64,000 nt of DNA from NCBI GenBank assembly GCA_032622095.1, contig CP136067.1, positions 195,014,052 through 195,078,051 of the forward strand, read 5' to 3'. Positions 12,591-54,700 of this stretch are shown here, in pieces. A program made the position numbers and the translations under genes. The stretch is from Siphonodentalium dalli. Lineage: Eukaryota > Mollusca > Scaphopoda > Gadilida > Siphonodentaliidae. The first letter of the stretch is position 1. Every line of letters begins with the position of its first letter. The notes below the pieces were generated by a model. The model was not told where the DNA came from. It saw nothing but the letters and a program-made list of their open reading frames with translations, and ran no database searches.

Positions 12591-12654
12591 ATTTGGCAAA
12601 TGCTAATATAATTTGGCAAAAAATATTTTCATTTGGCAAAAGTAAATTTCGGTC

Positions 12655-15600
12655 CAGCGCGGACCCTGACCAGGTGGCTGTAATGATAAGTCCCAGCGTG
12701 GACCCTGACCAGGTGGCTGTAATGATAAGTCACAGCACGGACCCTGACCAGGTGGCTGTAATGATAAGTCCCAGCGTGGACCCTGACCAGGTGGCTGTAA
12801 TGATAAGTCCCAGTATGAACCCTGACCAGGTGGCTGTAATGATAAGTCCCAGTATGAACCCTGACCAGGTTGCTGTAATGATAAGTCCCAGCACGGAGCC
12901 TGACCAGGTGGTTGTAATGATAAGTCCCAGTATGAACCCTGACCAGGTGGCTGTAATGATAAGTCCCAGCGTGGACCCTGACCAGGTGGCTGTAATGATA
13001 AGTCCCAGCACGGACCCTGACCAGGTGGCTGTAATGATAAGTCCCAGCACGGACCCTGACCAGGTGGCTGTAATGATAAGTCCCAGCACGGACCCTGACC
13101 AGGTGGCTGTAATGATAAGTCCCAGCGTGGACCCTGACCAGGTGGCTGTAATGATAAGTCCCAGCGTGGACCCTGACCAGGTGGTTGTAATGATAAGTCC
13201 CAGCACGGACCCTGACCAGGTGGCTGTAATGATAAGTCCCAGCGTGGACACTGACCAGGTGGCTGTAATGATAAGTCCCAGCGTGGACCCTGACCAGGTG
13301 GTTGTAATGATAAGTCCCAGCATGAACCCTGACCAGGTGGCTGTAATGATAAGTCCCAGCGTGGACCCTGACCAGGTGGCTGTAATGATAAGTCCCAGCA
13401 TGGAGCCTGACCAGGTGGCTGTAATGATAAGTCCCAGCGTAGACCCTGACCAGGTGGCTGTAATGATAAGTCCCAGCTCGGACCCTGACCAGGTGGCTGT
13501 AATGATAAGTCCCAGCGTGGACCCTGACCAGGTGGCTGTAATGATAAGTCCCAGCGTGGACCCTGACCAGGTGGCTGTAATGATAAGTCCCAGCGCGGAC
13601 CCTGACCAGGTGGCTGTAATGATAAGTCCCAGCGTGGACCCTGACCAGGTGGCTGTAATGATAAGTCCCAGCATGGACACTGACCAGGTGGATGTAATGA
13701 TAAGTCCCAGCGTGGACCCTGACCAGGTGGTTGTAATGATAAGTCCCAGCGCGGACCCTGACCAGGTGGCTGTAATGATAAGTCCCAGCATGGACCCTGA
13801 CCAGGTGGCTGTAATGATAAGTCCCAGCACGGACCCTGACCAGGTGGCTGTAATGATAAGTCCCAGCATGGACCCTGACCAGGTGGTTGTAATGATAAGT
13901 CCCAGCGCGGACCCTGACCAGGTGGCTGTAATGATAAGTCCCAGCACGGACCCTGACCAGGTGGCTGTAATGATAAGTCCCAGCATGGACCCTGACCAGG
14001 TGGTTGTAATGATAAGTCCCAGCGCGGACCCTGACCAGGTGGCTGTAATGATAAGTCCCAGCATGGACCCTGACCAGGTGGTTGTAATGATAAGTCCCAG
14101 TGTGAACCCTGACCAGGTGGCTGTAATGATAAGTCCCAGCATGGACCCTGACCAGGTGGTTGTAATGATAAGTCCCAGCACGGACCCTGACCAGGTGGCT
14201 GTAATGATAAGTCCCAGCACGGACCCTGACCAGGTGGTTGTAATGATAAGTCCCAGCATGAACCCTGACCAGGTGGCTGTAATGATAAGTCCCAGCTCGG
14301 ACCCTGACCAGGTGGCTGTAATGATAAGTCCCAGCTCGGACCCTGACCAGGTGGCTGTAATGATAAGTCCCAGCACGGACCCTGACCAGGTGGCTGTAAT
14401 GATAAGTCCCAGCATGGACCCTGACCAGGTGGTTGTAATGATAAGTCCCAGCGCGGACCCTGACCAGGTGGCTGTAATGATAAGTCCCAGCATGGACCCT
14501 GACCAGGTGGTTGTAATGATAAGTCCCAGTGTGAACCCTGACCAGGTGGCTGTAATGATAAGTCCCAGCATGGACCCTGACCAGGTGGTTGTAATGATAA
14601 GTCCCAGCACGGACCCTGACCAGGTGGCTGTAATGATAAGTCCCAGCACGGACCCTGACCAGGTGGCTGTAATGATAAGTCCCAGCATGGACCCTGACCA
14701 GGTGGCTGTAATGATAAGTCCCAGTGCGGACCCTGACCAGGTGGCTGTATTGATAAGTCCCAGCGTGGACCCTGACCAGGTGGTTGTAATGATAAGTCCC
14801 AGCGCGGACCCTGACCAGGTGGTTGTAATGATAAGTCCCAGCACGGACCCTGACCAGGTGGCTGTAATGATAAGTCCCAGTGCGGACCCTGACCAGGTGG
14901 CTGTAATGATAAGTCCCAGCATGGACCCTGACCAGGTGGTTGTAATGATAAGTCCCAGCACGGACCCTGACCAGGTGGCTGTAATGATAAGTCCCAGCGT
15001 GGACCCTGACCAGGTGGCTGTAATGATAAGTCCCAGCGCGGACCCTGACCAGGTGGCTGTAATGATAAGTCCCAGCGTGGACCCTGACCAGGTGGCTGTA
15101 ATGATAAGTCCCAGTGCGGACCCTGACCAGGTGGCTGTAATGATAAGTCCCAGCGTGGACCCTGACCAGGTGGTTGTAATGATAAGTCCCAGCGCGGACC
15201 CTGACCAGGTGGCTGTAATGATAAGTCCCAGCGCGGAGCCTGACCAGGTGGCTGTAATGATAAGTCCCAGCGCGGAGCCTGACCAGGTGGCTGTAATGAT
15301 AAGTCCCAGCGCGGACCCTGACCAGGTGGCTGTAATGATAAGTCCCAGTGTGAACCCTGACCAGGTGGCTGTAATGATAAGTCCCAGCGTGGACCCTGAC
15401 CAGGTTGCTGTAATGATAAGTCCCAGCATGGACCCTGACCAGGTGGCTGTAATGATAAGTCCCAGCGTGGACCCTGACCAGGTGGTTGTAATGATAAGTC
15501 CCAGCATGGACACTGACAAGGTGGCTGTAATGATAAGTCCCAGCACGGACCCTGACCAGGTTGCTGAAATGATAAGTCCCAGCGTGGACCCTGGCCAGGT

Positions 15601-15685
15601 GGCTGTAATGATAAGTCCCAGCACGGACCCTGACCAGGTTGCTGTAATGATAAGTCCCAGCACGGACCCTGACCAGGTGGCTGTA
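12655..15685. repeat. 39-bp minisatellite, 78 copies
   Basis: Unit GACCCTGACCAGGTGGCTGT plus AATGATAAGTCCCAGCGTG occurs 77 full times plus a partial copy, with no length change through the array. Because 39 is divisible by 3 and the unit lacks stops in several frames, one plus and three minus frames stay open for about 1,000 codons; the plus frame reads DPDQVAVMISPSV repeatedly. Differences between copies cluster at CGCG (also CGTG, CACG, CATG, TGCG, TGTG), as expected from CpG decay rather than protein selection. I annotate it as non-coding. Confidence 0.9.
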
Positions 15686-23498: not shown

Positions 23499-25832
23499 GT
23501 TAGTACTCGTATATATTATACAATTTTATTTTGAACATCAACTTAACTTAATATTTAAAAACAATCTGTAAAATGTATATATATTATACATTTTTATTTT
23601 AAACATCAACTTAACTAAATAATTAAAAACAAATCTATATACCAGTTTGTTATAACACTGAATTGTCTTTCCAGGTTGCCACAGATGGCAGCACCGTACA
23701 TGCAGCACCGGCGTTAGTCTAGAAGTTTACCGATATGCCATAAAGACAGCGACGGCAATAGATTGGGTCTGCACCGCATGCCGCCAAACCACGACAGTCG
23801 AGCAGACGGTAGAAGACATTGAAATGACAACGACGACTCCACCTCCAACGATCGCAAACTTCGACATTGAAATGACAACGACGACTCCACCTCCAACCAG
23901 AATCGACCATTCGACCTTCGACATCGACGAAACCTTCAACCGGCCACACGACCACGATGAATCATCAATACTGCTCCCAGAAACACAGCTGATGGAAACC
24001 GACGATTCACCATCGACTTTCAGACGGATCGACAACGGAACGAAAAGAGGCAAGCCAAAGCTAGTGTCCAGTGACGGATTCAGCTTTACCGTGAAAAGAC
24101 AGACCAGCAAGGCGACACATTGGTGGTGTTCTCATCGCCAAAAGACTGGAGCCTGCCCAGCTACCATCACAGAGAAAGATGATGTCTTCACCGCAGGCCC
24201 AAAACTCCATAACCATCAACCTGAATCGAGATTTCAGCGCGTCTGCGACAATTGGCCGTCAGAAAGGAACAGATTTTCGTCCCTGCGTCAACTCTGGCTG
24301 AAGATTTAATGCGGGATGAGTTCGACAAGAACCCCAGCGCCGACCTGCCAAAGCCAGATAATTTGATCCGCCAAGCTAATCGAAGCCGACAGAAGGTGAA
24401 GCCGAAACCACCACGCGACAACAACTTCATCACCGACACTGGATTTCTGCCACAAGACTTCCTTCAAGACGACATCCATTTCGACGGCCAAAGGCATCAG
24501 ATTTTTGCAACATCCGCCCAGCTTGAAATTCTATCCAGGTCAAAGAATTGGTACATCGATGGAACATTTAGCATAGTGCGTCAGCCATTCCATCAACTGA
24601 TGACCATCCACGCCTTCGTCAGAAAAGGCGAACACTTAAAACAGATTCCGCTGATATATGTTCTGATGAGTCGTCGAAAGGCAAAAGATTATGATACGGT
24701 ACGCATCATTTATACATTATGAGTTTTCAAGATAATAGTTTCAAATATAATTTCTACAATTAACTTAATTCAGGTAACTAAATAAAATGAGTTTGTTCAC
24801 AAATAATTTGGAAATATTACAATATGACATTTAATTATAACATGATATTTATTTCATTTAAATATTACAACATGATATTTTGTCATTTCAGGTCTTCGAA
24901 TCACTGCTAAAACTACTGCCAGATCAACTTGCGGTGAAGACAGTGACAATGGATTTTGAAAAGGCAACATGGAAGTCCATAAAAAAGCTACTACCAGAGG
25001 TGGAAAGACGTGGTTGCTATTTCCACTGGACACAGGCCGTGAACAGGCAGATTCAAAAGAAAGGCCTGATCGAACTATACAACAAAAAAGGAGACGAACA
25101 CAGGTAAATATTTGTTCTCATAGAATAGAATTGTATGAATAAAATAATAGAATTGTATGATTAAATGATTTTTTTCAAAATATAACTTATATGATTTTAT
25201 TTTTATTTCAATTATATAAGTAGAATAATGCTATTATTTCAATTAGCAGAAATAAGGGTATAATTAGAATAATATATAACAAACTGAAATTTTTCTTATT
25301 TATGTTTATATCTTCTTTTCATTTTTGTAGGCAAATGCGAAAGCTTTATGCTTTGCCACTTCTGCCAGCCGAACACATCCGACCAGCATTTGCCAGGATG
25401 CGAGATCACCCGACAGCCAAAATCGGCAACATGCCGTTGATATACGAATATGTGCAATCGCAGTGGCTGGACTCTCGATGTCTACCGATGGAATCGTGGT
25501 GCGTCTACGGGCGCTCCATCCGAACGAACAATGATACCGAGGGATGGCACAGACGCATCCAATACAAAAACAAGGCAACAAACGTCCCGTACTATATCCT
25601 GGTTCCAATGCTCAAGAAGGAATCGGCAACGACAGACATGACTGTAAAGTTGGTTGGGGAAAAAAAGATGAAAAGATACCAAAGACTCCGGTATCGGGAG
25701 AACCAGGCGCAACTATTCTGCTTGTGGAGCAACTACGAAAACGGCGGCATCTCCACCAGTGGTCTGTTGAAGGCATGTTCGAAACTGTTTGCGCCAAAAG
25801 TTGTTGACAATGTCGAGTCGGCTGATTGTTAA
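23417..25832 (+). CDS. MULE transposase with PHD-like and FLYWCH zinc fingers
   Basis: Four exons (23,417-23,498; 23,675-24,698; 24,892-25,103; 25,331-25,832), all GT/AG, predict about 606 residues. The N-terminus has a PHD-like finger, CIDC then CEGCHRWQHRTC then WVCTAC, spanning exons 1-2. A Thr/Pro-rich duplicated linker (TTTTPPPT twice) follows, then a FLYWCH-type finger (HWWCSHRQKTGACPA...HNHQPE). The transposase core has YIDGTF (first Asp), MDFEKATW (second Asp) with CYFHWTQAV, and NNDTEGWHRR (Glu), so the DDE triad is complete. One base appears to be lost, or two gained, between 24,225 and 24,305, shifting frame just after FLYWCH. It may be a real lesion or a sequencing error. The protein would cut and paste the element in the nucleus. 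Confidence 0.8.
23675..24698 (+). CDS. MULE transposase exon 2, with frameshift
   Basis: Acceptor TCTTTCCAG. It encodes the rest of the PHD-like finger, the linker, FLYWCH, and the transposase core up to LMSRRKAKDYDT. The upstream frame stops at 24,309 and the downstream frame opens after a TGA at 24,222, so the break lies between these points. Ends at a GTACGC donor in phase 0. Confidence 0.75.
24892..25103 (+). CDS. MULE transposase exon 3
   Basis: Acceptor TTTCAG; carries the second catalytic Asp (MDFEKATW) and the GCYFHWTQAV motif. Ends AG before GTAAAT, completed to Arg by the next exon. Confidence 0.8.
25331..25832 (+). CDS. MULE transposase exon 4
   Basis: Acceptor TTTGTAG; carries the catalytic Glu in NNDTEGWHRR and runs 167 codons to a TAA at 25,830-25,832. 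Confidence 0.8.
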
Positions 25833-33700: not shown

Positions 33701-36700
33701 TTAAATAAGTGACAACAAAATCATTGCAAAGCAACACATTTCAATTAGAAAAGCTCAGTATAATATCACTTTTATTTGTGTTTGGGATATGTTACATATA
33801 TAGAGCCACACTCGTGTTTTTTTTGGTTAAAGATTACCTCACAGAACCCTAAACAACACAGTGTTGCTCTATACATGTATGTACTGGTATATATTCCTAT
33901 TTTGACCCCTTGATCAAAATTAAATCATAAATAAGTCTTAAAACTGCCAAAAGGCTTACAATAAGTTACCATGATTATGATTAGTTTTTATTTATTTTTT
34001 TCTCATAGGTTGGTACTTTGGACCAGTTGGTTGGTTTGTCCGATGACCTGGGTAAGCTGGATGTTTACTGTGAAGGGTAGGTACCTCATCGAGTTGGGAG
34101 TTTTATCCTTCTGTTTACTGTGAAGGGTAGACTGTACCCCATAGAGTTGTGAGTTTTGTCTTCTTGTATTGTCATAATTTAGCATGATATTACATGTATA
34201 TTAATGGGTACCTTACCTGAACATAGAAATATGAAAGATATGTTCTTTCAAAATCATTACAGTACTACTCACAACAAGTGTCTCCTTTTTCACTGGCCGT
34301 AATAAATTAATAATGCATTGATTATCTGGTATTTGCCATTGTGTTGAAGATAGCATACTAGTTTGTCTTCTTAACAAGTTTGATTTAGTATCCAGAAGCG
34401 CTTCTATCAATTAATATTGATTTTATTTGACTTATTCTGGTATAATACATACAACCCTTCGGGAAAGTTTTAGTGGCTATTTTTAGAACATAAATTTACA
34501 GAAATGCTCAGATCACAGCAAGAGGGAGAACTCTATCTTGTTTGCACTCTCCATCAAGGGGGAGAACTCTATCTTGTTTGCACTCTCCATCAAGGGGGAG
34601 AACTCTATCTTGTTTGCACTCTCCATCAACGCAAAATGTTATTTCCATTAAGAAATTTAGCTTTTTGACATCAGGAATAATTTAAACCTTGTGCCTTTAT
34701 TGACGAATCATGTACCCAACTTCAGTTTTGTCTGCTTTATTCACAGAAAATTTTATTTTTCGTCTTAAACTTGGGTTTTACAAAAGATTATGTTGTTGTT
34801 GTAACACAGTCCCAGTTTTAATGCACCGGTACATTAATGTGATGATATTTTGATTATTAATGACAAATTACACATCAGATGGTATCAAGTTATACATGTC
34901 ATATATAATTATAGATTTCATGTAAACAGTTTTATAGTAAAAAGCCTACAAATTTATATTATTTAGAAACAACAAGAATATATTTGGTAACCAACAAATA
35001 TAAGTTTTAATTTCAAGTGACATGTGGAGGGAGATAGGGGAGGAGCCATAGAACACAAAATGGGTTTTTGTCTTACTGCAAAATATGCAATTGCGTGTTT
35101 AAACTCGCGGAAACAAATGGATCCTTTAAAACCAGACAGAACATTTCAGAGAAATTCAGAATTCCTCGCTTAGGCCAGGCATCATCTACTTCAATTAGGC
35201 CCGTTTTATACGTCGCGCCAAACACGGGTCGCGCTATCTTCCCCTGGCTCGACATTGGCCCGTCTCTGGCTCGTGTTACGTTTGTTTGATTTATACGTCG
35301 AGCCAGCTGGCACGTGCTGTAATTGTATATTTCGAACAATTTTAGCATTTCTGATACAAAATTCCGTCTGCTATAATCATTTCCGCGATAGTGTCCTCTG
35401 ACAATGCACTATAAACTGGCCGGCTATACAGTGCATGAATCTCATAATTTATGCTTTCGTTGGTTTCAAAATCGGGATCTTGTCATTCATTTCCCTCAAA
35501 TATATATCTCTGCAATATATTTATTCCCAACTTTCGCGAAACGTCCTTTGCCAGTCGATACATGCATGTCCCCGTAGTAGACAATTGCCTTCAATGTATA
35601 TTTACAACGGCCAAGAGTTAGCGCTGTGCTGTCTGTGGCCCGACGCTGTTTTATACGACATGCCAGACACAGGTCGCGCTAGGATGACTTAAGAGATAAC
35701 GTAATGACGCCAAAAACTTCAAATTGCACATGCTCTCTGCCAAATGGGGAACGGTTTTCCCTGAATCATGTTAGCGCGACCCGTGTTTAGCACGTCGTAT
35801 AAAACAGCGTCGAGCCCCAGACGTGTAGCACGTCGGTACCAGACGTGTAGCACGTCGGGTGACGTGTAGCACGTCGGGTCGTGCCAGAGAAATTCTGACG
35901 CGCCAGTTGGTTTTATACGTCGTGCTCCAGTTGCGCTATCTTGGACTTTGTCATTTTCACACTAATTAGGCTGGCGCGACCCGTGTCTGGCTCGACGTAT
36001 AAAATGGGCCTTAGTGTGACCATTCACATACACATCTCGAATACCGCATTTGTTCGTTCTAAAATCCAATCCAGAATTAGACCAAAGCCAATGCCTATGC
36101 AAACACAAAGAAAAGACATGGATTTTACACTACAAATCATCCAACCATGGGGCCTGAACAGGAAGAACATTTTCTTATATTTTAATTGCGTTTTTTATCT
36201 TACTCTTGATCTTTCCTTATTCAGCGTTACAAAGAAAATTGCCCTGTACTTGGGCGAAGTTTTAGAAGATCAAAAAGATAAACTTCAGGAAAATCTATTA
36301 GCCAATCAAGGTAAGCTAACTGTAGATCATGAATCACTACTCTGGCTAGTCCTGTACAGATCATATTCCGCCCATTCAAAAAATCTGCGAACATTTTGAT
36401 GTTCTGACTGGGAACTTTATAACATTGAATGAACAATGTAGGGAATATATATCTTAATTAATAATTTAATACCTGTTTCGTAACAATGTATTGCACTGTA
36501 GGAGATGATGACTTGTGTGTGTATCAATTGCGCAATAAGCATTGAATTCATTATCTTTGGAAATTCCATGATTGTAAGCTGCACAGCAAATTTTATTCAC
36601 AAAATTTGCCTAAATCATGCAATCTCAAGTTAGGATCTTCACTTACTGTGAAACAAATTATTAACCCTTTCAGTGCCAAGTCCGATTTTTGTATCAACCC

Positions 36701-39700
36701 ATATACCCTGTGCCAATGCATTCTCTTATATATGCGAGTCGACCATAGGTCGCCTCGCATATATAAGAGAATGCATTGGCCTAACAATTTTTCATCATTT
36801 GTTATTATTTTTTACAATTTTTTACAATTTTAATAATTTTTTCTTATATTCTTTAACAGACTTATTTTGTAGGTTTAGTGCCAGGGAATCTTACGTTTTT
36901 CATGGGCATCAAAATTATTACTATGAATACTTTTGAGTTATAACATGGCCCTAAGGTTTTATCTAGTTTGTTTTTAAATTCGCTATAGCATACTTAAAGG
37001 GGTACTGTACGCCATTTTCAATAAATTTCCGGTGATAACAACGATCTATTATCGATAATATATAGAAACATAAGTAATTTGAGTCGAAGATGTATTCTGT
37101 AAACGCTCAGGTTAATAGGCTATCTTAAAATTTAATAATTTAAAAGTTAATAATTTAATATAAATTGAATTTATGGCTGGAGCCATAAAATGGCGTAAAT
37201 TAAAATACGAATTTCCTTGTACAAGACGTAATCAAATTATAATTGAGGGATACTGGATTAGTAAACCCATTGCACACACGATCGTTTGAAACAATATGCT
37301 TGAGAAAACTCAAGCCACTCACTGACTAGTGACGATACAATAACATAAATCAGTTCATGGGACAAAAATTACTCGACAACAACAATTTGTATTTTTGCAT
37401 TCCGGTAAATTTGCCATCCGTAACACTACTTCGTACTCAACAGACTTTCAAATAATGGAAAAATTGTTACCTTATTCTCCGACTCAGAGACTATAGAAAC
37501 CAACAACAACATTTGGGTACAGTATCCCTTTAAGCATACCCAAAAAAAATTCAAGAGTTAAGGGCACATGTATTAACTAAAAAAAATATATTACCTGAAT
37601 TGTCTTTTGAATGTTATAAATTTCCCCGTCACGACATCAAAAAGTTGCCAGTTTTTGAGCCAGTGGAGTATAATCTCTTCTTACATAACCAGAGTAGAGA
37701 TTCATGGCATGAACTAGGTTATAAACTGTTACACGAATGTTGAGTTAGGCCGAGTGAAATTCCAACTGAAGAGTAAATATGTACCTTTTATTATACGTTC
37801 ACCAATGAATTATAGAAAAAATTGCTGTTAGATAAAATATTTTTATCACCCACAAGGGGTTATAGAAATTTTCACTTTCCTACTAGCTCGTGCATGAGCG
37901 ACTGATCCACTTACGTGTACCAATACAATGCAGGATTATTTCAAAACCCTCGTGAATTGGTAGACTTGACGTTACCTTTATTATTATATAAACTTGTTTT
38001 GTGTTGAGGAAATCAGTGGATTAATATGGGAACTACGGCCAATGAAGAAAGACTGAATAAGTGGCCAGGGATCAGTTGTCCACTTTGGTGCTTCTATTGA
38101 AGGTTATTATGAGAACATTTATTGTCGTAAATGGTGAATTTCTATGTAACGCATATAATAATAAGAAAATCTAGTGTTTTTGAGTGAACACCAAAAATTA
38201 TCTCATTCCGGAAAGAGACAAATACTTATTTTTTAACTGTTTTTGTAGTTGATTTGAATCTTCATGCATACTAAACCAGTACATTATTTGTTTATCTCAT
38301 TGTTTTTTTTAGTTGAGTTGAAAACCTATTTAACAAGATTCCAGTGGGATTTAGCCAAGTATCCAATTAAACAGAGTTTACGAAACCTGTCTGAGATAAT
38401 CAGCAAGGTGAGTCGTCATAATTAAAGGACTATAGTAAGGGTTCGTGCAGCCGCTTTTCCCAAATTTCGACACAAAAAATAATTCATTCTTGGCACAAAT
38501 TATTTTCATCTGACAAAAGATTTGGCAAGTGAGTTCAATGAAGTAGAAACTATTTATTAAGTGGTCAAACCATTCATGTCTGTCACAAAAGCCCGATGTT
38601 ACAGTTTTGTTATTGCGGCATTGAGAAAGTTCACGCCACTATGAACTAGTAGTTAGTTTGATTACATATGAGACAGGTAGCGATATTATGCATGATTATG
38701 ATGTTTACACGACTCATTACATATGAGACAGGTAGGGATATTATGCATGATTATGATGTTTACACGACTCATTCTCTTTCTTTATAGAGGTGCCCTCAGG
38801 TAATTTTTTATATGCCCCCCCCTTAACAAGTTAAGTTGGGGTATGTATGTAGGAATCAGCTTGCCGTCGGTCTATCTGTCCATTCATCTGTCCATAGATC
38901 TTGATCTGCTATTTCTTTTAAACTTGGTACAGATATTTAGTACCATGGGAACCTGTGCACCTGCAATTATGAGGTCCATGCGACAGTTTTTGTGGAGTTA
39001 ACCCCCTTTTTGAAACACTCAAATCAATATGTCAGTCTGTCTGTGTGTGCATATGATTTACTTTTCCAGAGTATAACTTGAGTGCATAAAACATTTCCGA
39101 CACTGGCTCATGGGGGATCCTTAGTCCCATTGGGACAGCCCACCTCTAGTTTATTTGTTTTATTACGGATTCTGTTTCCCCAAAAAATCACTGGAGTAGA
39201 AAACAAATAAAATTTGTAATCAGCACTTAATATTATTTCCTCTGAGTTTTGCTAACTAGTTTTATTCAGGTCTCATTCTACACATTTATCTAAGATCTCT
39301 ATGTTTATCGTTGTTGATCTTGCATTTGATCTGTTATTGGATTATGCTTTTTACACAGTAAGATCTTTTTTGTCTCTTCCATTTCGCAGCAAGTTTCCCA
39401 GATAGAAGCTGATCTCAGAACAAAAGCTTCTGCTTTTAATAGTCTGAAGGGAAACTTACAGACTCTCGAAAGGAAGGCAACGTAAGTTAAGTTTAATAAT
39501 CTGAAGGGCAACTTACAGACTCTCGAAAGGAAGGCAACGTTAGTTTCGTGGTTTTAGACTTACTTTTAATAATCTGAAGGGCAACTTACAGACTCTCGAA
39601 AGGAAGGCAACGTTAGTTTCGTGGTTTTAGACTTACTTTTAATAATCTGAAGGGCAACTTACAGACTCTCGAAAGGAAGGCAACGTAAGTTACATGGTTT

Positions 39701-42700
39701 TAGACTTACTTCACAAAGTCAAGAAAGAGATGTCATGATACAGCATCCATTTGTCAGCGTGTGAACACTGATACAGTGAAACCTCTCCAATGCGGGCCCT
39801 CTACAATCCGAATCCCTCTCCATTCCGAACGAATTGTTCTGTCCCGAATTTACCCAAGTGCATTGTCACTAATGATTACCTCTGTAATCTTATACCTCTG
39901 TACTCCGAATACCAGACAGCTTTATTAGTCCATAAGTGAACAAATAGACTAATGTTTACCTCCAAAATCCGAACACTGAAAGTGATGGAAGAGACCGAAC
40001 GCAATCAGTTAAATGGTAATGATGTGAACGTTTCCGTTTTTGAGTTGACCTATGTGTGACCCCGATCAGCATCACAGTTAGTTACAAACGGATGAAGCGT
40101 TCCTGGTAAATTAATCAAATTTAATTACAAATTAAAATGAATATAATGCCTGATAATAAAAAGATATGGCTGTATTTATATTTAATCTTATTCTAAATAA
40201 ATTCCGAAAGGGATACCAGGCAAATGCGCGTGCACACAGGTAATGTACTTTCGTTCTATTGAATAAGCATACCAATTTAATTAGCGGTCTTTTTTCTCGG
40301 CGAAGCTTTGAAACCGTGTCTAATTGGATACGCCTAAACGAAAAAAAATTACTGCACCACCTTCAGATACACATAGATATATGTTTGCTTATTTCACAAA
40401 TTGATTCTACAATGGTGACATCACAGATAATTAGAGCAGCGACACGTTGTTTTTACATAAGTTATTGCGCTGGAAGGGACTCTTTGTTTGTACAACAATT
40501 GTCCAAACTAAACACTAATTAGCTAAAAGTACATGATGGTGGTTTATTGTCACCATCACAGTTTTAATCAACTTATCACAATTAATGAGCCGTCGGGAAA
40601 ACGACAGCTCAGAGTTGAAATCTACCAACAACAACATTTTCCAAAACCGCGAATCACCGTAAAATGTATTGTTTCCAGGTTTCCAGGTTTATCTGTACAT
40701 ATATTTATGTCTTATTATAACATTTTTATCTATTGCAATTTATTTTTTGTTGTATTTTGTAGTTTATTGAATAAAGTTTAATTAATCACTACGGCGGTGT
40801 TCGGGTCTCGATAACTCTTACCGACAGCGGCAATATATTCTGATGGTTTTGCGATTTTCTGTAAACCGAACACCTCTCTAAACCGAACAGAAGGCCGGTC
40901 CAAAGGGTGTTCGGTTTGTAGAGGTTTTACTGTACACTGTATTCCTAATGTAATTATCATGATGTCATTAATTTACTGAAAGTTGATACAAAGACATGTG
41001 TTGGCCAAATACTGAAAAAATGCTTTGGCCATTTGTTTGCCATTTGCGAAAACCTTGTTCATACAGAAAATATAGGAACTTGCAGCAAAACTTGTGCGAA
41101 AAACTGTTTTTTTTAAATAAAAGAAAGAAAAATGAATAATTGCGTTAAATTCTCAATATCTACAATAAAATTATCTTATAAAAACAGGAATTGGGGAAAT
41201 TTTGGAGAATGTTTAACAGTGAGAGTCAGTCCTAAATACCGTATAATTATATTGTATAGTAAAAATAAGTATTGCACCAGTTCAAATGGGGACTTTTGAT
41301 GACAAGACATCAAGTAATAAATAATTAGTAAGAAACAACATACCAGTAGAAATAGCAGTTTTATCTTTCATAATTTTTATAAACAATAAATTTTTATAAA
41401 CGCAGAAATAGCAGTTATCTTTCATAATTTTTATAAACAATAAATTTTTATAAACGCAAGTTGCAACGTTAGCAGGAAGTGTTGTTGTTTCTACTCTATT
41501 GTTATGGTAACATGCACCTATGAGCAACTGTTGATTCAGGTTTGCAGTTAGTATGGCTCAGCATCTGTAGAACAGCCTCAATCCCCTTGCAATCTATCTT
41601 AAAATATCTGGCTGCAACGAGAGTGGGTGGTTAAACATAACACTGGTCAAAAAGCACATCGATTCAGCATTATGTTACCTGTACAGCATAACCCTTTGAA
41701 ATAAAAGCACCAAAACTACAACGTAATGTTTGGTGTGCCGCCCCGTCACATTATGTGCCTTATACAGCCTCATTTATTTTACCCTGGTGGAAACCGTGGC
41801 TGATTACAGTAAAGTTTCAAAAAGATTTGTTGGTAGTCTATTAATTGTGAGTCCTTTCCCTGTGCTATTTTAGATTTTTATTTGATTTCTTGGACATTCC
41901 ATTACACATTTGAAATGGGAATCATTGGCTAGCCTTGAAACATTCTGTTTAGTTCTTTTTGAAAAAAAATGCATGATATTTAAAAAAAATATAATATGTG
42001 TGCTATAAATAAGAACTTGAAACCTATGTGTGTCCATTTGTAAGCTTTCTAATTCCAGAAATTATTGAATATTTGATGTTACATTTACACTGTGCGATTT
42101 GTCTAACATTCTAATACATCTTCATTCCAGTGGGAGTTTGTTGTGCGATTTGTCTAACATTCTAACATATCTTCATTCCAGTGGGAGTTTGTTGTGCGAT
42201 TTGTCTAACATTCTAACATATCTTCATTCCAGTGGGAGTTTGTTGTGCGATTTGTCTAACATTCTAATATATCTTCATTCCAGTTGGAGTTTGTTGTGCG
42301 ATTTGTCTAACATTCTAATATATCTTCATTCCAGTGGGAGTTTGTTGTGCGATTTGTCTAACATTCTAACATATCTTCATTCCAGTGGGAGTTTGTTGTG
42401 CGATTTGTCTAACATTCTAATATATCTTCATTCCAGTGGGAGTTTGTTGTGCGATTTGTCTAACATTCTAATATATCTTCATTCCAGTGGGAGTTTGTTG
42501 TGCGATTTGTCTAACATTCTAATATATCTTCATTCCAGTGGGGAGTTTGTTGTGCGATTTGTCTAACATTCTAACATATCTTCATTCCAGTGGGAGTTTG
42601 TTGTGCGATTGGTCTAACATTCTAATATATCTTCATTCCAGTGGGAGTTTGTTGTGCGATTTGTCTAACATTCTAATATATCTTCATTCCAGTGGGAGTT

Positions 42701-45700
42701 TGTTGTGCGATTTGTCTAACATTCTAACATATCTTCATTCCAGTGGGAGTTTGTTGTGCGATTTGTCTAACATTCTAATATATCTTCATTCCAGTGGGAG
42801 TTTGTTGTGCGATTTGTCTAACATTCTAACATATCTTCATTCCAGTGGGAGTTTGTTGTGTGATTTGTCTAACATTCTAATATATCTTCATTCCAGTGGG
42901 AGTTTGTTGTGCGATTTGTCTAACATTTTAATATATCTTCATTCCAGTGGGAGTTTGTTGTGCGATTTGTCTAACATTCTAATACATCTTCATTCCAGTG
43001 GGAGTTTGTTGTGCGATTTGTCTAACATTCTAACATATCTTCATTCCAGTGGGAGTTTGTTGTGCGATTTGTCTAACATTCTAACATATCTTCATTCCAG
43101 TGGGAGTTTGTTGTGCGATTTGTCTAACATTCTAATATATCTTCATTCCAGTGGGAGTTTGTTGTGCGATTTGTCTAACATTCTAACATATCTTCATTCC
43201 AGTGGGAGTTTGTTGTGCGATTTGTCTAACATTCTAATATATCTTCATTCCAGTGGGAGTTTGTTGTGCGATTTGTCTAACATTCTAATATATCTTCATT
43301 CCAGTGGGAGCTTGTTGTGCGATTTGTCTAACATTCCAATATATCTTCATTCCAGTGGGAGTTTGTTGACTCGGAACCTGGGTGACATCGTGTCAAAAGA
43401 AGACTTCGTTTTGCACTCTGAGTATCTTGTCACAGTATTAGTGGTTATTCCAAAGTAAGTCATTATTTGTAAACAAAGCATTAACCCTTTAATAACGGGA
43501 GCTACGCTGGTGCAGCATTAAAGATCTTGTGTCAGTGCATTCTCTTATATATGTGAGTATTCGCATATATAAGAGAATGCACTGGCTTACCAGGTCGAGG
43601 TAAATATTGTTAGGCCAATGTATTCTCTTATATATGCAAGGCTTTCTATGGGAGACTCGCCTATATAAGTGAATGCATTGGCACAGGGTTTTCGCAAAAT
43701 TTCAGGAAGCTCCAGTCATGGAAGGGTTAAATAGCTTTAATTATTCTGTTGCAAGCAGTCAAAAATATGTTTTCGAGTATCACATCCCATTCGTTTTAAC
43801 TGTAATTATGTCATCATCATCACGGTATACTTTAAAGTATGTGTGACGTCACAAGTACATACTCCTGTCTGTTACCTATACACAACCCGAGCTCAGTGCT
43901 GTGCACTGAGTTGGGTCATTATAATTTAGAGTTTATTTATTTCTCACATTCTTTTTTGTAAATACAAAATGTAAGTGACACTGTGTCTCCTTAATGGAGG
44001 TAGTAAACTAATAATAGTTTGATAAGAGAAGTTGTTCATAACGATTGGTTGATATAGGCTTAACCCTTTACCCAACAAACTGGCCAAAAACGCCCAAATA
44101 AAGCTTCAACAGCCTAAAATATCTTGGGTCTGTCTCAATAACACCATACAAATATGGATATCATTGGAACCGGTTCATTGACCACATTGTGATGGTTACA
44201 GTTATGCCCTGTGCCAATGCATTCTCTTATATATGCGAGTCGACCATAGGTCACCTCGCATATATAAGAGAATGCATTGGCCTAAAAAAAAAAAAATTTA
44301 ACACTTTTTACCATTTTTTCTTACATTCTTTAACAATTTTATAATTTTTTAACATTTTTTATAATATTTTTCTACATTTTTTGACAATTTTATCATTTTT
44401 AATATGTGTTAAGCCAATGCATTCTCTTATATATGCGGGGCGACCTATGGTCGACTCGCATATATAAGAGAATGCATTGGCACAGGGCCGTTCCGTTGGG
44501 TAAAGGCTTAATGTTTAGATATATTCGTATGTTTACAGAGCAGCCGTACATGACTGGAACCTCAGATATGAGAAGCTTACTGATATGATTGTGCCAAGGT
44601 CAAGCAAGTTAGTATAGGACTTTATTTCTTCTAAATTTGTCTGAATCATTATAATCATTCAATTCAATTCTACCTCAGTAACCTGTCATTAGCAAGCCTG
44701 CAAATAGTGTGTCTGTCATTTGCAGAATGAGGTCCCCAAAGGGTGAATTTAGTGATGCTATCCCGCACAGTGGGTTAGCATCACAAATTCACGCTCTGGG
44801 GATCTCATTCTGCTTAGGCCTCATCTTCTGGGAAGTATCTCTACTATATAGTCTCAAATTAACATTGTTTTAGTTACTTTTTCCCTTCTGTTTAGTTTCT
44901 ATATCCCCTAATTTGCAGAAGAAAAAATGCAAATCGAGGTGACTAATGGGTGAACATCACCAACTTCAACTGGGGAACTTCAATTTGATTCTAGGTCTCC
45001 CATAGCAGTTGAGGCTAAAGCAGAATGAGGTTCCCAGAGGGTGAATATGGTGATGCTAACCCACTCTGCGGGATAGCGTCATTAATTCACCCTCTGGGTT
45101 CTCACTCTGTCATTAGCAGGTTTCCAAATCATTCTAAGTTCTTTTTTAGCTTAGAGTTCACTTAAGATTACTTAATAGAAAGAGTTATTAAAATCACATA
45201 AATTAGAAAAGTCGGGTCCCAATTTTTTCTTCAGCATTCAAAAATAGAGTGTTTTTGTATTTCTGATATGGCATAATGAATGTCTCATTTCTGTTTGAAA
45301 AATTTAAAACAGCTTGAAAATTGTTGTGACTTTTGCAAGTTTTTTTCAGATTACATAAAGCATGTAGATAGATATCTTATGTATTAAACCATTCCATGAT
45401 TGGAGCTTCCTGAAATTTTGCGAAAACCCTGTGCCAATGCATTCTCCTATATATACGAGTCCTCATATGGAACCTCACTTATATAAGAGAATTCATTGGC
45501 CTAACAATATTTACCTTGACCTTGTAAGCCAGTGCATACTTTTATATATGCGAGGCTCCCTATGGGAGACTCAGATAGATAAGAGAATGCACTGGCACAG
45601 AATCTTTAATGCCAGCACAGCTCCCACCATGAAAAGGTTACCACTTATCTTATCCCTCCTACTTCCAAATGACGTATACATAAGTTGGAGGTTGAAATGA

Positions 45701-48700
45701 TCTTTGTCTGTGTAAATTTTTATTTTATTTATCTTGTCTACGCAATGAATGTTAGTTAAGGAATGAAATGTTATGGGGAGGATATTTTGAGCAAGTTGGA
45801 GAGATCATTGGAAAAAAATTTACAATTCTTATTTATGGCCTTACAATGTCAAGTCTTTCTATGCTTTTCAGGATACTGTATGAAGATGGAGAGAATTGTT
45901 TGGTGACTGCCACATTGTTTAGACGAGTCGTCGATGAATTTAAACACCACTGTAGAGAAAACAAGTAAGTGTTGACGATATTTCAGGAACATTTGGCCAA
46001 ATTGGCCCCCTGACTTTTATCGACCGAATGAAAAGACCAATGACTACACGTATCATGACAGCATTGGACAAGAATATAGTAGCAGGTTGGACAGTAGTTG
46101 ATTACAAGCCTTGAAATAGCGCGTCTGTCATTTGCAGAATGAGGTCCCCAGAGGGTGAATTTAGTGATGCTACCCCGCATAGTGGGCTAGCATCACCAAA
46201 TTCACCCTCTGGGAACCTCATTCTGCTGAGGTGTAAGCAGAATGAGGTCCCCAGAGGGTGAATTTGGTGATGCTAGCCCACTATGCGGGGTAGCATCACT
46301 AAATTCACCCTCTGGGGACCTCATTCTGCAAATGACAGACGCGCTATTTCAAGGCTTGGTTGATTATAAAATAGTTCATTAAAAAGTGGCATGTTCAATG
46401 ATGTTCTCCAGTTATGACAGAAATATATATGTTCACTAGTTGAGCCAATAGCTGGCATAAACCTTTTTATACTAAATGGATTCTCCCAACCAATCATAAA
46501 GTATACATTGGAATGGTTTATTATTTATCTGAAGGGTTTTTAGAAAAAATAAGCAGACAACAGATAATAGTACAGAAGGAGTCCTATTTATTGGAGAATT
46601 TTCAATATTTGAGGTTTCTGGGTGATAACTTTAGTTTTATTTATTTTATCGGAACAAAATTTGGTATGTTCGTTTTCCAGACCAAAATACAGGTCAAGTT
46701 CGATTATGGGTTAGGTCCAAATATTTTTTTCTCACTTATGACTCTTTTCAAATTAGAATTTTCTATATTTGAGGTTTCCGGATGATAACTTTAGTTTGGG
46801 TCATTTTATCGGAACCAAATTTGGTATTCGAGTTTTCCAGACCAAAATACTGGTCATGTTTGAGGGTTCGGCCCAAATATTTTTACTGACTCGATGGCTC
46901 TTTTCGACCAATGCTACCATTTAGTGTCACTGCCATTGTTTGTTTGTGTACAGTTCATAAAAGCACACCAGGCGTATTTTGCCACGCCCAGCACAGCTCT
47001 TGTTTTAGAAGGGATTATGTTTTGACGTAACAAGGTATGTTAATCAGCAGGAACATTACGTATGGGCCAAAAATTCTGCATCAGCTAAAAATGCTTAGAA
47101 ATTGCATGGTGACACACTCTACATATATAAACTTGATTTAACATTGGCCCATTTTCTTGGCATACTATGTGGATTAAAATCAACAATTTTCATTGTAGTT
47201 CTCCTTCTCTAATCCTTGTAACTGTTAGGCATTCAATATATAGAGGATCTACAATGAGGCCCCAGTTTATAACAGAATTTACAAAACAAGTCCAGTAAAT
47301 TAGGTCTGGACCGAGCCTTTGAGGACGTCCAGTAAATTAGGTCTGGACCGAGCCTTTGAGGACGTCCAGTAAATTAGGTCTGGACCGAGCCTTTGAGGAC
47401 GTCCAGTAAATTAGGTCTGGACCGAGCCTTTGAGGACGTCCAGTAAATTAGGTCTGGACCGAGCCTTTGAGGACGTCCAGTAAATTAGGTCTGGACCGAG
47501 CCTTTGAGGACGTCCAGTAAATTAGGTCTGGACCGAGCCTTTGAGGACGTCCAGTAAATTAGGTCTGGACCGAGCCTTTGAGGACGTCCAGTAAATTAGG
47601 TCTGGACCGAGCCTTTGAGGACGTCCAGTAAATTAGGTCTGGACCGAGCCTTTGAGGACGTCCAGTAAATTAGGTCTGGACCGAGCCTTTGAGGACGTCC
47701 AGTAAATTAGGTCTGGACCGAGCCTTTGAGGACGTCCAGTAAATTAGGTCTGGACCGAGCCTTTGAGGACGTCCAGTAAATTAGGTCTGGACCGAGCCTT
47801 TGAGGACGTCCAGTAAATTAGGTCTGGACCGAGCCTTTGAGGACGTCCAGTAAATTAGGTCTGGACCGAGCCTTTGAGGACGTCCAGTAAATTAGGTCTG
47901 GACCGAGCCTTTGAGGACGTCCAGTAAATTAGGTCTGGACCGAGCCTTTGAGGACGTCCAGTAAATTAGGTCTGGACCGAGCCTTTGAGGACGTCCAGTA
48001 AATTAGGTCTGGACCGAGCCTTTGAGGACGTCCAGTAAATTAGGTCTGGACCGAGCCTTTGAGGACGTCCAGTAAATTAGGTCTGGACCGAGCCTTTGAG
48101 GACGTCCAGTAAATTAGGTCTGGACCGAGCCTTTGAGGACGTCCAGACCTAATTTACTGCTTATAATTTACAAGTTGTAGATTCCATTTATTACATGATC
48201 CAAAACCTCGACAAAACATACAACAAATAGGACGCTAAAGTAACATCGGCTTCTATAAGGCATGTGATGACGTTTCACTTAACTATGTGTTGTTTGTCCG
48301 CGTAAAGAAATAGTCCCAGATAAATATGACTCTTTGGCATATTTAATAGCCTATATTTAATGACATAACTTTTCAAACTCTTCATTCATTATAGTTTGTT
48401 GGAAAAATATTGGAAGCCATAGTATTTACAGAATGTAACAGATGACAAACCGGAAGTCAGGCACTATTTCCTGTTATTAAACGAATGTTTAATATTACAA
48501 TTTATAGAATGGGTTTATTGAATGGATTAAGGGTAGGATCATGTAATAAAGTTAAAATCCATATATCTTTCTCAAGACTTTCCATGACACAAATCTATTA
48601 CAATGATCACAACAATTTGGTTCAGTTTTGCACATACAGTAAAACCTCTCCAAACTGGACCCTATATAATCTGGATCCCTCTCTAAAACGAACAAATTTG

Positions 48701-51700
48701 TCGGTCCCGGATTAAGCCAAGTGCACTGTCACTAATAATTACCTCTGTAATCTGGAACCTCTGTATTCTGAACACCGGACACCATTTTAGTCCGAAATAA
48801 CCATACACATGATATTTTACTGCCAGCATCCAAACGCAGGTTCCAATCAGTGACACATGTTTTCATACAGTTGTCTTTCGTACCGATCTTATCAGTGAAA
48901 TTTTGTTGAGTGAATGCACTGAACTTGATAGCAATAGCAGGTGGGTGATTAGATATCCCAGTGTTTTTTCACACATTGAGTGATTAACTGAGACTTCATT
49001 GGAGATTTACTTGTTGGCAGTTAGTTTTGATACCAGTTTAGCTGCTAAGTTGAACTATCATGTGTTCACAAACACTGTACAAAACAAACACTTTAGTTTT
49101 CCATAAATACATGTTACATTTGGCAATCATTAAAATAGATTTTTATTCCCTCTTACTTCATTTCATTTGGGTTTCAAATTGTCTATTTTCGAGGTAGTTC
49201 GCGATGTCAATGGTCCTTACTTTAGCACCATTCTGATAGAGTTACATGGACAATTGTTAGTAGTTTATTAATAATTTTAGGTGGACAATTTATTATTCAA
49301 CGAACAGACTACATTAAATGATAATAGTATTTGAAATTTTCAGCTTGGAATTGAATTAATCAGGTTGATTTATATCCAAATTTTAGCTTGCAAGTTTTTG
49401 TGATCCAAATTTAGTTTATCGGCGGGCTCATAGTTCACTTGGTGTCGTCTGAAGTTTCATCTATTAAACATGCTGTGTTATCTAATATATATTTTGGGAC
49501 TTCTGTCTGTCTGTCTGTCTGTGTGTGTGTTAGCTATGGCCGGGAAAACTGCAAGACGGAAAAACTGCCAGACGGATTTTGACGAAATTTGATACCTAGG
49601 GGTAATTTTGTCCAGCGAGTGTTTTGGACGGGTCAAATCGTGACCCCGACCTGACCTTGACCTTCAAAATGGTCAATTCAACGTCAAATTTGGTAAAATG
49701 GACGGATTTCGATGAAATTTGATACCTATGGGTACTTTTGTCTGGGGAGTGTTTTGGACGGGTCAAATCGTGACTCCGACCTGATCTTGACCTTCAAAAT
49801 GGTCAATTCAAGGTCAAAGCCCGGACGAAGTCGGGTCACCTGCTAGTATAATATATATGTCTTTATAATGGGGACATTCTGATCCGATCATAATTTCTAT
49901 AAACCAAACAATTCACTATACTGGACAAAATGGTCGGCAAACTTGAAAGATGTATCTGCTTTTCAGAATTGATTTAGTTTTTACGATAATATAAACTGAG
50001 ATTGTTATGTTTATTGTTATTTTCAGATTCAATGTCCGTGATTTTACATACAGCGAAGAAGAAATCAATGCTGGAAAGAATCAAATAATAAAATTGGAGG
50101 CAGATAAAAAGAAACAGTTTGTTAGTATCAACACAATTACTCAGCTATCTACTGATAAGTCAATATTGTTAAATGACATAATATGAAACACCATTTTACC
50201 TGCAAAATATCTCTAAAATCTTCCGTTTTCCCGTACTTGGGATGATTGGGACAAAATTTTGCTTAAATTGTAAAAGTCAGTAGTGGGAACAGTCCAAGGA
50301 GAAATACACTAATGCCCTAAATAATCGACTCCTTAACCACAGAAGAATTATGGGTAACTTTTCAGGATTTAGTCGGAAATATGGCTTGTTGCCATTCATC
50401 GGAAAGCTCTGACTAAATCCTGAAAAGTTACCCATAATTCTTCTGTGGTTAAGGAGTCGATTATTTAGGGCATTAACTGTAGGTAGAAAATATATAGAAA
50501 ATAATTGAGAATCATCTTCTGTTCTAGATGACACTTTGTAAGGAGCATTAGTTGTGCCATGGCATTCTAAATTGTGCAGGACACTTATTATGCTTAACAC
50601 ATTCACTGCTGACTACAAGTTATCTCATACTTTTTACGTATAATTAAATGGGCATCAGCAGTGAATGTGTTAAATTATTTGAAGTCACAACATAATGATC
50701 ATATTTTAATAGTGAAGCATGTATAAATGTGTATATTTTTAATCATTTATGATAATTGAACTCACTATGTTAATTGTCTTTTTCACATTTAGTCACATAA
50801 TCTGTCTTCCTCCATTTTCCTGCCACCTCATCAAGTTTCTAGCACTCAATGTAGAGTTCTCTGTCTTTGAATATGCAGTTTGTAGATAAAGATACTTCAT
50901 AGATATGATTTATCCCATCAATTTACTTTTATAATGCATATCCTTTGTCTCATGTTTTCTCTTAAACTCTTCTATGATGTGCGAAGTATGAAGTATATAA
51001 CAATTCGTTCAGTGTCCAAGATACTTATTAGGAGATACATATTTCGGGAAAGAAATTATTATATTTTAATGCTGAAGCATGTATAAATGTGTAAATTTTT
51101 AATCATTTACTTTGATATTGCATATCCTGTCTGGGACTTACAAAAATTTATTTCTCTTAATTTCAGGGTCCCCTAGTCAAATGGTTGAAAGTAAATTTCA
51201 GTGAGAGCTTCACCGCCTGGATCCATGTCAAAGCATTGAGAGTATTTGTTGAATCAGTTCTACGGTAGGTTTTAATTCTTCCTTCACGCCTGGATCCATG
51301 TCAAAGCATTGAGAGTATTTGTTGAATCAGTTCTATGGTAGGTTTTAATTCTTTCTTGGGTGAGTGGGGATAAAAACATGCATAGTAGTTTAATCATTTT
51401 ATTTAACCAAAATCTTGTACAGTAAATCCTCTCTAAACCGAACACCCTTCGGACCGGCCCTTCTGTTCGGTTTAGAGAGGTGTTCGGTTTACAGAAAATC
51501 GCAAAACCATCGGAATATATTGCCGCCGTCGCCGAACACCTCATTACTGATTACTTAAACTTTATTCAATAAACTACAAAATAAAACATAAATTGCAATA
51601 GATAAACATGCTATAATAAGAAATAAATATATGTATAGAGAAACCAGGAAACATGGAAACGATACATTTTACAGTGATTCGCGGTTTTTGAAAATGTTGT

Positions 51701-54700
51701 TGAGCTATCGTTTTCCCCGACGGCTCATTAATTGTGATAAGTTGATTTAATAAAACTGTGATGGTAACAATAAACCACTGTCCTGTACTTTTAGCGAATT
51801 AGTGTTTAGTTTGGACAATTGTTGTAAAAACAAAGAGTCCATTCCAGCACAATAGCTGATGTAAAAACAACGTGTCACTGCTATAATTACCTGTGAAGTC
51901 ACCACTGTTCAATCAGTTTGTGATATAAGCGAACATGTATCTATTTGCATCTGCATGTGGTGCAATGCAGTAACCAATTATGGTTTAGGCGCATCTAATT
52001 AAACACCTGTTGTTTAATCCGTTTCAAAGCTTTACCGATACAAAAGACCGCTAATTAAATTGGTACGCTTATTCAATAGTACGAAAGTACATTACCTGTG
52101 TGCACGCGCATTCGTCTGGTATCGCTTTCAGAATTTATTTAGAATAAGATTAAATATAAATACGGCAGTATCTTTTTATTCTCAGGCATTATATTCGTTT
52201 TAATTTGTAAATAAATTTGATTAATGTACCAAGAACACTTCGTCCGTTTGTAACTAACTGTTGTCACTGACGGTGATCGAGGTCACACACAAGTCAACTC
52301 AAAAGCGGAAACGTTCACATCATTACCTTTTAACTGACTGCGTTCGGTCTCTTCCGTCGCTTTAAGCGTTCGGATTTTTGAGGTAAACATTAGTGTATTT
52401 GTTCACTTATGGACTAATAAAGCTGTCTGGTATTCGGAGTACAGAGGTTTCGGATTACAGAGGTAATCATTAGTGACAACGCACTTGGGTAAATTCGGGA
52501 CCGAACAATTCGTTCGGAATGGAGAGGGGTTCGAATTGTAGAGGGTCTGGTTTGGAGAGGTTTCACTGTACAATGTTTCGCGGTATGATGACGGAATGTA
52601 TCAATGGTGTTATTTATCAACATGTTGTTCAATGAAATGTGGCCGTATTATCATTTGAGTATCACAAAATTTGGCCATATTACCACTTAATTTTAGAGTT
52701 TTCCATCTTCATCCGCAATTTTGTCTGAGACTGTCGATTTGACGACTCTTTTCTTGATCACAAATAATTACAAATTTCGAGAAATAAAAAATTTCAAAAA
52801 ATTGATATCTGATCACTCTGAGCTTTGATGGGTGGGTTCCTTGACTCGAATCAAATATTTTTTACCTCGAAGCCAAAGAAATATTACTTTGGGGGCGTTA
52901 TTTCTGATTATGTATCTGTAAGTTTCTGATGAAGCAACATCTTGCAGGGAAGCAGAATCATGATTAGCCCTTTCTATACTAAAGACGCATTGATGAGTAG
53001 TTATCCAGTAGGAAATGTTCAGATAATAAAGTCAACTAGGTCATTTGTTGAACTTATTATCTGAACATTTCCCTAAATAAATAGAGCTCCTTCTGCACAT
53101 TATGATCTGTTGTCTGCTTATATCACCTGTACCATTCTGATGTACACTTTTTTAACTTGGTGGGGGAATCCATTTAGAAAAGAAGGGGTTAGAATGTCTA
53201 TTCTACGATATTTTATTGTATAATTTATCCATTGTTTGTACCTCCTCTATAACTTTATATCATGTTGACTCTTGCAAAGATGAATGGGTTGGTGCTCTGA
53301 TTTTGTTCTGTAGAAAGTTTTTCTCATATTTACTTTTTCACCTATCAGGTATGATCTACCAGTGAACTTATTAACTTTTTCACCTATCAGGTATGGTCTA
53401 CCAGTGAACTTCCAGGCCATGCTTGTACAGCCAGCGAAGCGAGCATCGCGGAGACTGAGGGAGGTACTAAACCAGCACTACTTTAGTCTCGATAACACGG
53501 CGCTAATGGGATCTGAAGTAAGTATACTCAAAGGTTCCACGTTCAATAACACGGCGCTAATGGGATCTGAAGTAAGTATACTCAAAGGTTCCGCATTCAA
53601 TAACACGGCGCTAACGGGATCTGAAGTAAGTATACTCAAAGGTTCCGCGTTCAATAACACGGCGCTAATGGAATCTGAAGTAAGTATACTCAAAGGTTTC
53701 GCATTCAATAACACGGCGCTAATGGGATCTGAAGTAAGTATACTCAAAGGTTCCGCATTCAATAACACGGCGCTAATGTGATCTGCTGTAAGTATACTCA
53801 AAGTTCCTTGTTCAATACTTTCCAAGATAAAAACACAAGAAAAAATATTTTACAGTAACATAATCATTAGTTAGTTTTCCGCAGTCATTGAGGGGTTCCC
53901 AGTCACACTCACTAGTAATTATGTTGGAAAATACCTGAAAAGAAGACAATACAAAGCAGAAGTGACAAGAGAAAATTGGAGTACCCAGAAATTTAAAATT
54001 GCAGATGCGAGTTCATTTACATTCATCTGCTTCTATACTGTTCATGTCATAGTCTATATGCCAAGGTTGTTTGACATTTTCGGTTGAGACTATATGATTT
54101 TGGTGTGTATCAATGCACTGTCATGGGAAGACTCTGCACTATTTATGTTAACAATTCACAATGCATCATTACCGGTATGCATGTCTTTTCGTCTGCTGTG
54201 GTTTGCAGATGTGCATTTTTAATAATCTTGAAAATATATTATTATTTTCATAAAATTGATATCCCAATTGATGTCACACCAAATTATTTCAGGGTTTCCG
54301 CTAAAACGGACCCAGTTTTGGTGCCGAAAAAAAACTTAGATAAAAAAATGAGAAATGGATGGTGTATGGATCAATGAAATCAGAGTTGTTTTCCGTGGCT
54401 CCGGTTGTCTTTGATCTTCCAATCACCACCTGCAATGATGCCAAAAATAGACAACTTCAAAGGTTTATACCAATTTTGTGTATTCAATAATTGGTCTGTC
54501 GGCAAAACATCACACCTCAGAAAACAACTGACTTCCATAGGCGCTGGTACTGCTCAATGTAATTGTAACATCGACTGCTTCGATTTCGCTCAGAATAAAT
54601 TCAAAAACACCCCCCACACGCACACACACACACGCACATGCCTCTCCCCAAGTCCCACGATTCTGGTGCTAGCAATAATTAATTTTAATAGAACAGAACA

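Follow-up and report, generated by a model that had tools for sequence, protein, structure and literature searches.

A 51-bp minisatellite across a splice junction places 25 near-identical acceptors before exon 6 of a V-ATPase subunit C gene and is probably tolerated by splicing

The gene for V-ATPase subunit C in the scaphopod Siphonodentalium dalli carries a 51-bp minisatellite that lies across the junction of intron 5 and exon 6 and sets 25 consecutive 3' splice sites in front of that exon. The array lies in a stretch of 64,000 nucleotides of contig CP136067.1 (assembly GCA_032622095.1), hereafter the window, in which all positions are counted. We read it as a minisatellite of the type described in amphioxus as "mirages", a passive expansion tolerated by splicing with the exon-proximal acceptor mainly used, and give this reading a probability of about 80%; within it, we infer both that the last acceptor is used and how the array expanded. 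The features on which the reading rests are these.

30638 to 55799, + strand: V-ATPase subunit C gene, 12 coding exons, 380 residues plus stop (AG/GT junctions, PF03223 and homology)
39390 to 39481, + strand: exon 5, ending in phase 2, with a GTAAGT donor
42091 to 43368, + strand: tandem array of 25 copies of a 51-bp unit, the end of intron 5 and the start of exon 6 (Tandem Repeats Finder, TRF, and direct scan)
42539 to 42544, + strand: extra G in copy 9 (TGGGGAG, near 42,541; direct scan and frame check)
43356 to 43454, + strand: exon 6 (99 nt), after the 25th, exon-proximal acceptor (continuous homology to V-ATPase C)

TRF reported a period of 51, 25.0 copies, 97% matches and 0% indels (score 2428), far above chance. 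A direct scan located CATTCCAG at 25 sites from 42123 to 43348, spaced by 51 nt in 23 of the 24 steps and by 52 nt in the step from copy 9 to copy 10. Each unit joins 40 nt of the intron-5 end (TGTGCGATTTGTCTAACATTCTAATATATCTTCATTCCAG) to 11 nt of the exon-6 start (TGGGAGTTTGT). All 25 units contain TCTAAC, which we take to be a match to the usual branch-point consensus, and all 25 contain CAGT, with pyrimidines between the two and the acceptor falling between CAG and T. Both the exon residues GSLL and the genuine exon-6 acceptor lie inside the unit and, because the array overlies the exon start, every copy holds a potential acceptor. The array is a head-to-tail, minisatellite-like repeat that crosses an intron-exon junction in a real gene, the start of exon 6 being supported by homology, and individual copies differ by private variants and a single indel. 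The GTRAGT donor had no match in 42091-43368; without a donor in the 51-bp array, the array alone creates no new intron. A DNA search of the whole genome (2.23 Gb, 9 contigs) scored at least 11 matches to the unit, all of them within the array. We also considered a block duplication within the array, which would bear on copy-number instability and is hinted at by eye in the similarity of the unit-type string XCCBBCBBB (copies 1-9) to XCCBCBBB (copies 18-25) in the one assembly; a shuffle test gave P = 0.15.

The predicted protein is complete and matches PF03223 at 6e-147. A homology search found 3349 homologues, and the comparisons given here and below concern the 120 best-listed of them. The first of these is a chiton protein at 74% identity; bivalves account for the remaining named rows at 74%, with a nemertean at 72% and insects at about 70%. 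By E-value a horse protein at 54% takes the second row, and the top listed identity, 75%, belongs to an unnamed entry. Among the named matches listed, this V-ATPase C is thus nearest to those of molluscs. At residues 150-165, where additional copies of the unit would be inserted, all 120 homologues are free of insertions and deletions. The insertion point lies about 10 residues inside a stretch (query 147-261) that matches 4dl0_I, a crystallised 130-residue fragment of the subunit, presumably the head domain.

Exon 5 stops in phase 2 (GCA AC), leaving a split codon whose last base exon 6 supplies. The acceptors of copies 10-25, sixteen with the exon's own, are in register with exon 6 and free of stops, whereas those of copies 1-9 are out of frame and run into stops because of the single extra G in copy 9. 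The peptide of the open frame, SLLCDLSNI...HSSG, has 17 residues per unit. This anatomy agrees with the original prediction, made from the sequence itself, which had described 25 acceptors before exon 6 of a V-ATPase C gene, a unit of intron end and exon start exactly 17 codons long, and an extra G that divides the acceptors into nine out-of-frame and sixteen in-frame. An open frame is nevertheless cheap in this DNA. Random 51-mers from the introns of this gene, tandemly repeated, were open in a given frame in 36% of cases; units modelled on the eleven internal 3' splice sites of the gene were open in 63% on average, ranging from 0 to 100% by exon; and an array of 77.7 copies of a 39-bp unit at 12654-15685, taken as a control, lies in four open frames that overlap and run to 977-1041 codons. 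The openness of the 51-bp unit therefore carries little weight, and we rejected openness combined with a period divisible by three as weak evidence of coding, on these controls and on the tests of step length given below.

In the mechanism that we propose, a 51-bp stretch across the junction would first have been tandemly duplicated, and slippage or unequal exchange would then have expanded it to 25 copies. Junction arrays in this genome would simply reflect how often short tandem duplications arise overall, with no targeting of junctions. A duplication of this kind across a junction would keep the exon-proximal acceptor intact; the spliceosome would mainly pick this last acceptor through exon definition of the 99-nt exon, and the 24 upstream copies would normally be spliced out as intron. 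It is this preference, we propose, that would allow the gene to function. Under exon definition the acceptor nearest an exon's donor is favoured; introns here span 1-4 kb and exons 68-140 nt, and the acceptor nearest the exon-6 donor should be the one chosen. The first-transcribed acceptors can hardly dominate, because the nine out-of-frame copies would destroy the product of a gene that is conserved and presumably essential.

The array is not an isolated case, a correction to the scope of the original prediction. The same gene has five further duplications spanning a junction, at exons 2 (diverged), 5, 10 and, on both sides, 11, which with the exon-6 array makes six.

34060 to 34165, + strand: exon-2 donor region, diverged duplication 50 bp apart (seen by eye only; unflagged by TRF and by the position-based test)
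39435 to 39711, + strand: exon-5 end and donor in tandem copies, steps of 57, 73 and 73 bp, four donors; read-through meets an immediate stop
51208 to 51357, + strand: exon-10 end and donor, two copies of 73 bp; read-through meets an immediate stop
53327 to 53411, + strand: exon-11 acceptor and exon start, two copies of 42 bp; the upstream acceptor lies in frame, with no stop (+14 residues)
53492 to 53807, + strand: exon-11 end and donor, six copies of 54 bp; six donors in frame, open to the fifth, with TGA in the sixth copy

At the position where the exon-11 donor array would insert residues, between exons 11 and 12, the length of homologues varies by a few residues, unlike at the exon-6 site; that array is perhaps a better site than exon 6 for tolerated length variants.

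Junction duplications are also found in other genes of this genome. We sampled exons from chaperonins (PF00118, 50 of 53 matches) and myosins (PF00063, 30 of 85 matches), 80 loci in all (L009-L088). Removal of 25 near-identical loci by a BLAST rule left 55, and two long intronless loci (L009 and L010) were dropped by hand, leaving 53 exons. Sample edges are the ends of Pfam matches ±15 nt rather than verified splice sites, and the positive loci were viewed by eye. Some of the loci kept overlap on the genome, so the control windows are partly non-independent. Strand labels were set by hand, with orientation warnings for 11 loci, and the count of edges is strand-independent. A tandem duplication was present at 9 of 106 exon edges, in 9 of the 53 exons, compared with 11.8% of 2438 intronic control windows from the same loci; simulated edges gave a mean of 12.5, and 9 was reached in 90% of simulations. 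Of 35 arrays cut to founder size, 4 reached an edge, where 4.4 would be expected. Windows in exon interiors were flagged in 9 of 244 cases, all in loci with a junction duplication; these flags were not individually inspected. The sampled duplications copy an exon end with its donor, or an acceptor with or without the exon start. In L047 the second copy has no donor, and in L030 the duplication ends at AG. L015 and L030 keep upstream acceptors that would yield a stop if used. In L033 (1584-1880) the end of a chaperonin exon recurs several times together with its donor, at a spacing of about 39 bp and with the first copies in frame, which makes this a second gene with a donor array. Junction duplication is therefore not confined to the V-ATPase C gene and, because the rate at edges is no higher than in introns, the junctions of this sample do not look targeted; they tolerate duplication.

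Three results weigh against a passive expansion with use of the last acceptor. A score matrix built from the 11 other acceptors of the gene, a small sample, gives copy 25 a score of 1.9 and copies 1-24 scores of 4.6-6.7. Among 15 junction duplications, the six of the V-ATPase C gene and the nine of the 53-exon sample, the step is divisible by three in 8 against 5 expected (binomial P = 0.09), a faint lean towards preservation of frame. Finally, 5 of the 13 arrays of this gene cover a junction against 1.15 expected (P = 0.004, founder-size test, post hoc).

The first two results bear on whether the array is a working alternative-acceptor cassette, in which choice among the in-frame copies 10-25 would yield V-ATPase C with n x 17 additional residues. 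Sixteen stop-free acceptors with intact TCTAAC and CAG would suit this role, and so would their upstream members' higher scores and the lean in step length; an open, in-frame reading also holds for the exon-11 acceptor pair (42 bp) and, as far as the fifth donor, for the 54-bp donor array of exon 11. However, nine copies are out of frame, the best-listed homologues are uniform in length at the site, open frames are cheap, and among acceptor duplications alone the step is divisible by three in only 2 of 5 (P = 0.54); the numbers are too small for a decision on frame preference among junction duplications. We consider such a cassette unlikely. It is similarly unlikely that splicing to exon 6 draws on a whole range of in-frame acceptors which, together with the in-frame exon-11 acceptor pair and donor array, would let array genotype and spliceosome choice set the lengths of V-ATPase C. 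Because the upstream copies outscore the last acceptor, leaky upstream use is possible, and low-level use of the copies near exon 6 may add 17 or 34 residues. The interpretation first offered for the array thus stands in its anatomy, frame and gene. Its suggestion of a length-variable V-ATPase C finds no positive support, given the cheap open frames, the absence of homologue indels at the site, the persistence of duplications that give stops (L015, L030, exon 5 and exon 10) and the reportedly undisturbed splicing of comparable duplications in amphioxus, described below.

The third result bears on whether splice junctions are hot spots that a splicing- or transcription-linked cause, such as R-loops or breaks at proto-splice sites, would duplicate preferentially. 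The amphioxus reports too concern junctions (PMC3087553, PMC3902484). The gene, however, was chosen for its array, and a position-based test of junction coverage in the window was not significant (P = 0.13-0.19). The 53 other exons have no excess, whether counted by edges or by arrays, and we judge preferential duplication of junctions improbable, although the gene-level excess leaves room for gene- or junction-specific causes.

Among known systems, mirages are the closest to the exon-6 array, which we take to have arisen as a passive expansion. PMC3087553 describes them as minisatellite-like tandem duplications over an intron-exon boundary, in amphioxus Adh3, troponin C and the globins BflGb6 and BflGb9; PMC3902484 adds PGBD5 to them and cites TnC. 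Either the 5' or the 3' junction can be affected, and in many of them the splice signals are copied too; normal splicing is reported to be undisturbed in these comparable duplications (PMC3087553, PMC3902484). The array shares with them copied splice signals and two structural features, a head-to-tail minisatellite-like repeat and a unit that spans the boundary, and on these two features we would file it there, in a new lineage, taxon not being a mechanistic feature. The mirages are cephalochordate reports, whereas for the V-ATPase C of the present genome the nearest of the named matches listed are molluscan (74%); the open-licence literature that we searched yielded no boundary-duplicating minisatellites outside lancelets. 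Unlike the mirages, the array has 25 copies of a single acceptor and an in-frame unit, and stands among six junction duplications (one diverged) in one gene.

Other systems share less with it. NAGNAG and other close tandem acceptors also place multiple acceptors before one exon, but these lie 2-12 nt apart (PMC2878309), whereas the acceptors of the array are 51 nt apart, each with its own module, and do not form a NAGNAG. Intron gain by tandem duplication, as in potato RdRp (PMC4974935), likewise involves an intragenic tandem duplication with splice signals. The AG/GT proto-splice-site idea of intron gain, as told in PMC3087553, needs both an acceptor and a donor in the unit, and the array has acceptors and no GTRAGT. 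Ordinary intronic minisatellites consist of near-identical tandem units too, and the array differs from them in lying over an exon start. For one amphioxus mirage, aberrant assembly in a draft genome is on record (PMC3087553), which raises the question of whether the array is partly or wholly misassembled. The private variants and the indel among its copies argue against this, as do several independent junction duplications of differing periods in this and other genes, and we regard an artefact as highly improbable.

Twenty-five near-identical acceptor modules offer a readout of how position, that is, distance to the exon's donor and order of transcription, sets the choice of acceptor, and the extra G flags which choices break the frame; to call the array a natural test of that choice, as had been done, is fair. 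Boundary-duplicating minisatellites are frequent in this genome (9 of the 53 exons sampled), and their rate is close to the background of tandem duplication, which suggests that spliceosomes cope with redundant sites routinely.

Several further observations concern the sampled loci and the window. Seven near-duplicate locus pairs have ungapped identities of 0.74-0.93 with mostly non-tandem indels, and we drew no allele-like evidence on copy number from them. Chaperonin gene segments stand in pairs, tens to hundreds of kb apart, at C1:54.10/54.27, C7:133.43/133.49, C1:68.37/68.54 and C8:26.61/26.65 Mb, and are either recent tandem gene duplications or uncollapsed haplotypes. Intron 8 of the V-ATPase C gene holds an array of 23.2 copies of a 37-bp unit (47290-48146; TRF, 100% matches), which contains the palindromic core GTCCAG...CTGGAC and ends in an inverted part-copy; it is probably a very recent expansion. 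Recurrent inverted-repeat elements with CCAATGCATTCTCTTATATATGCG, by eye similar to miniature inverted-repeat transposable elements, lie at 36716-36780, 44217-44280, 44415-44480 and elsewhere. A second family begins GCAGAATGAGGTCCCC, and variants of it occur near exons in L041 and L047. Open reading frames at 23824-25832 resemble a transposase-type gene, with a start that we take to be FLYWCH-like.

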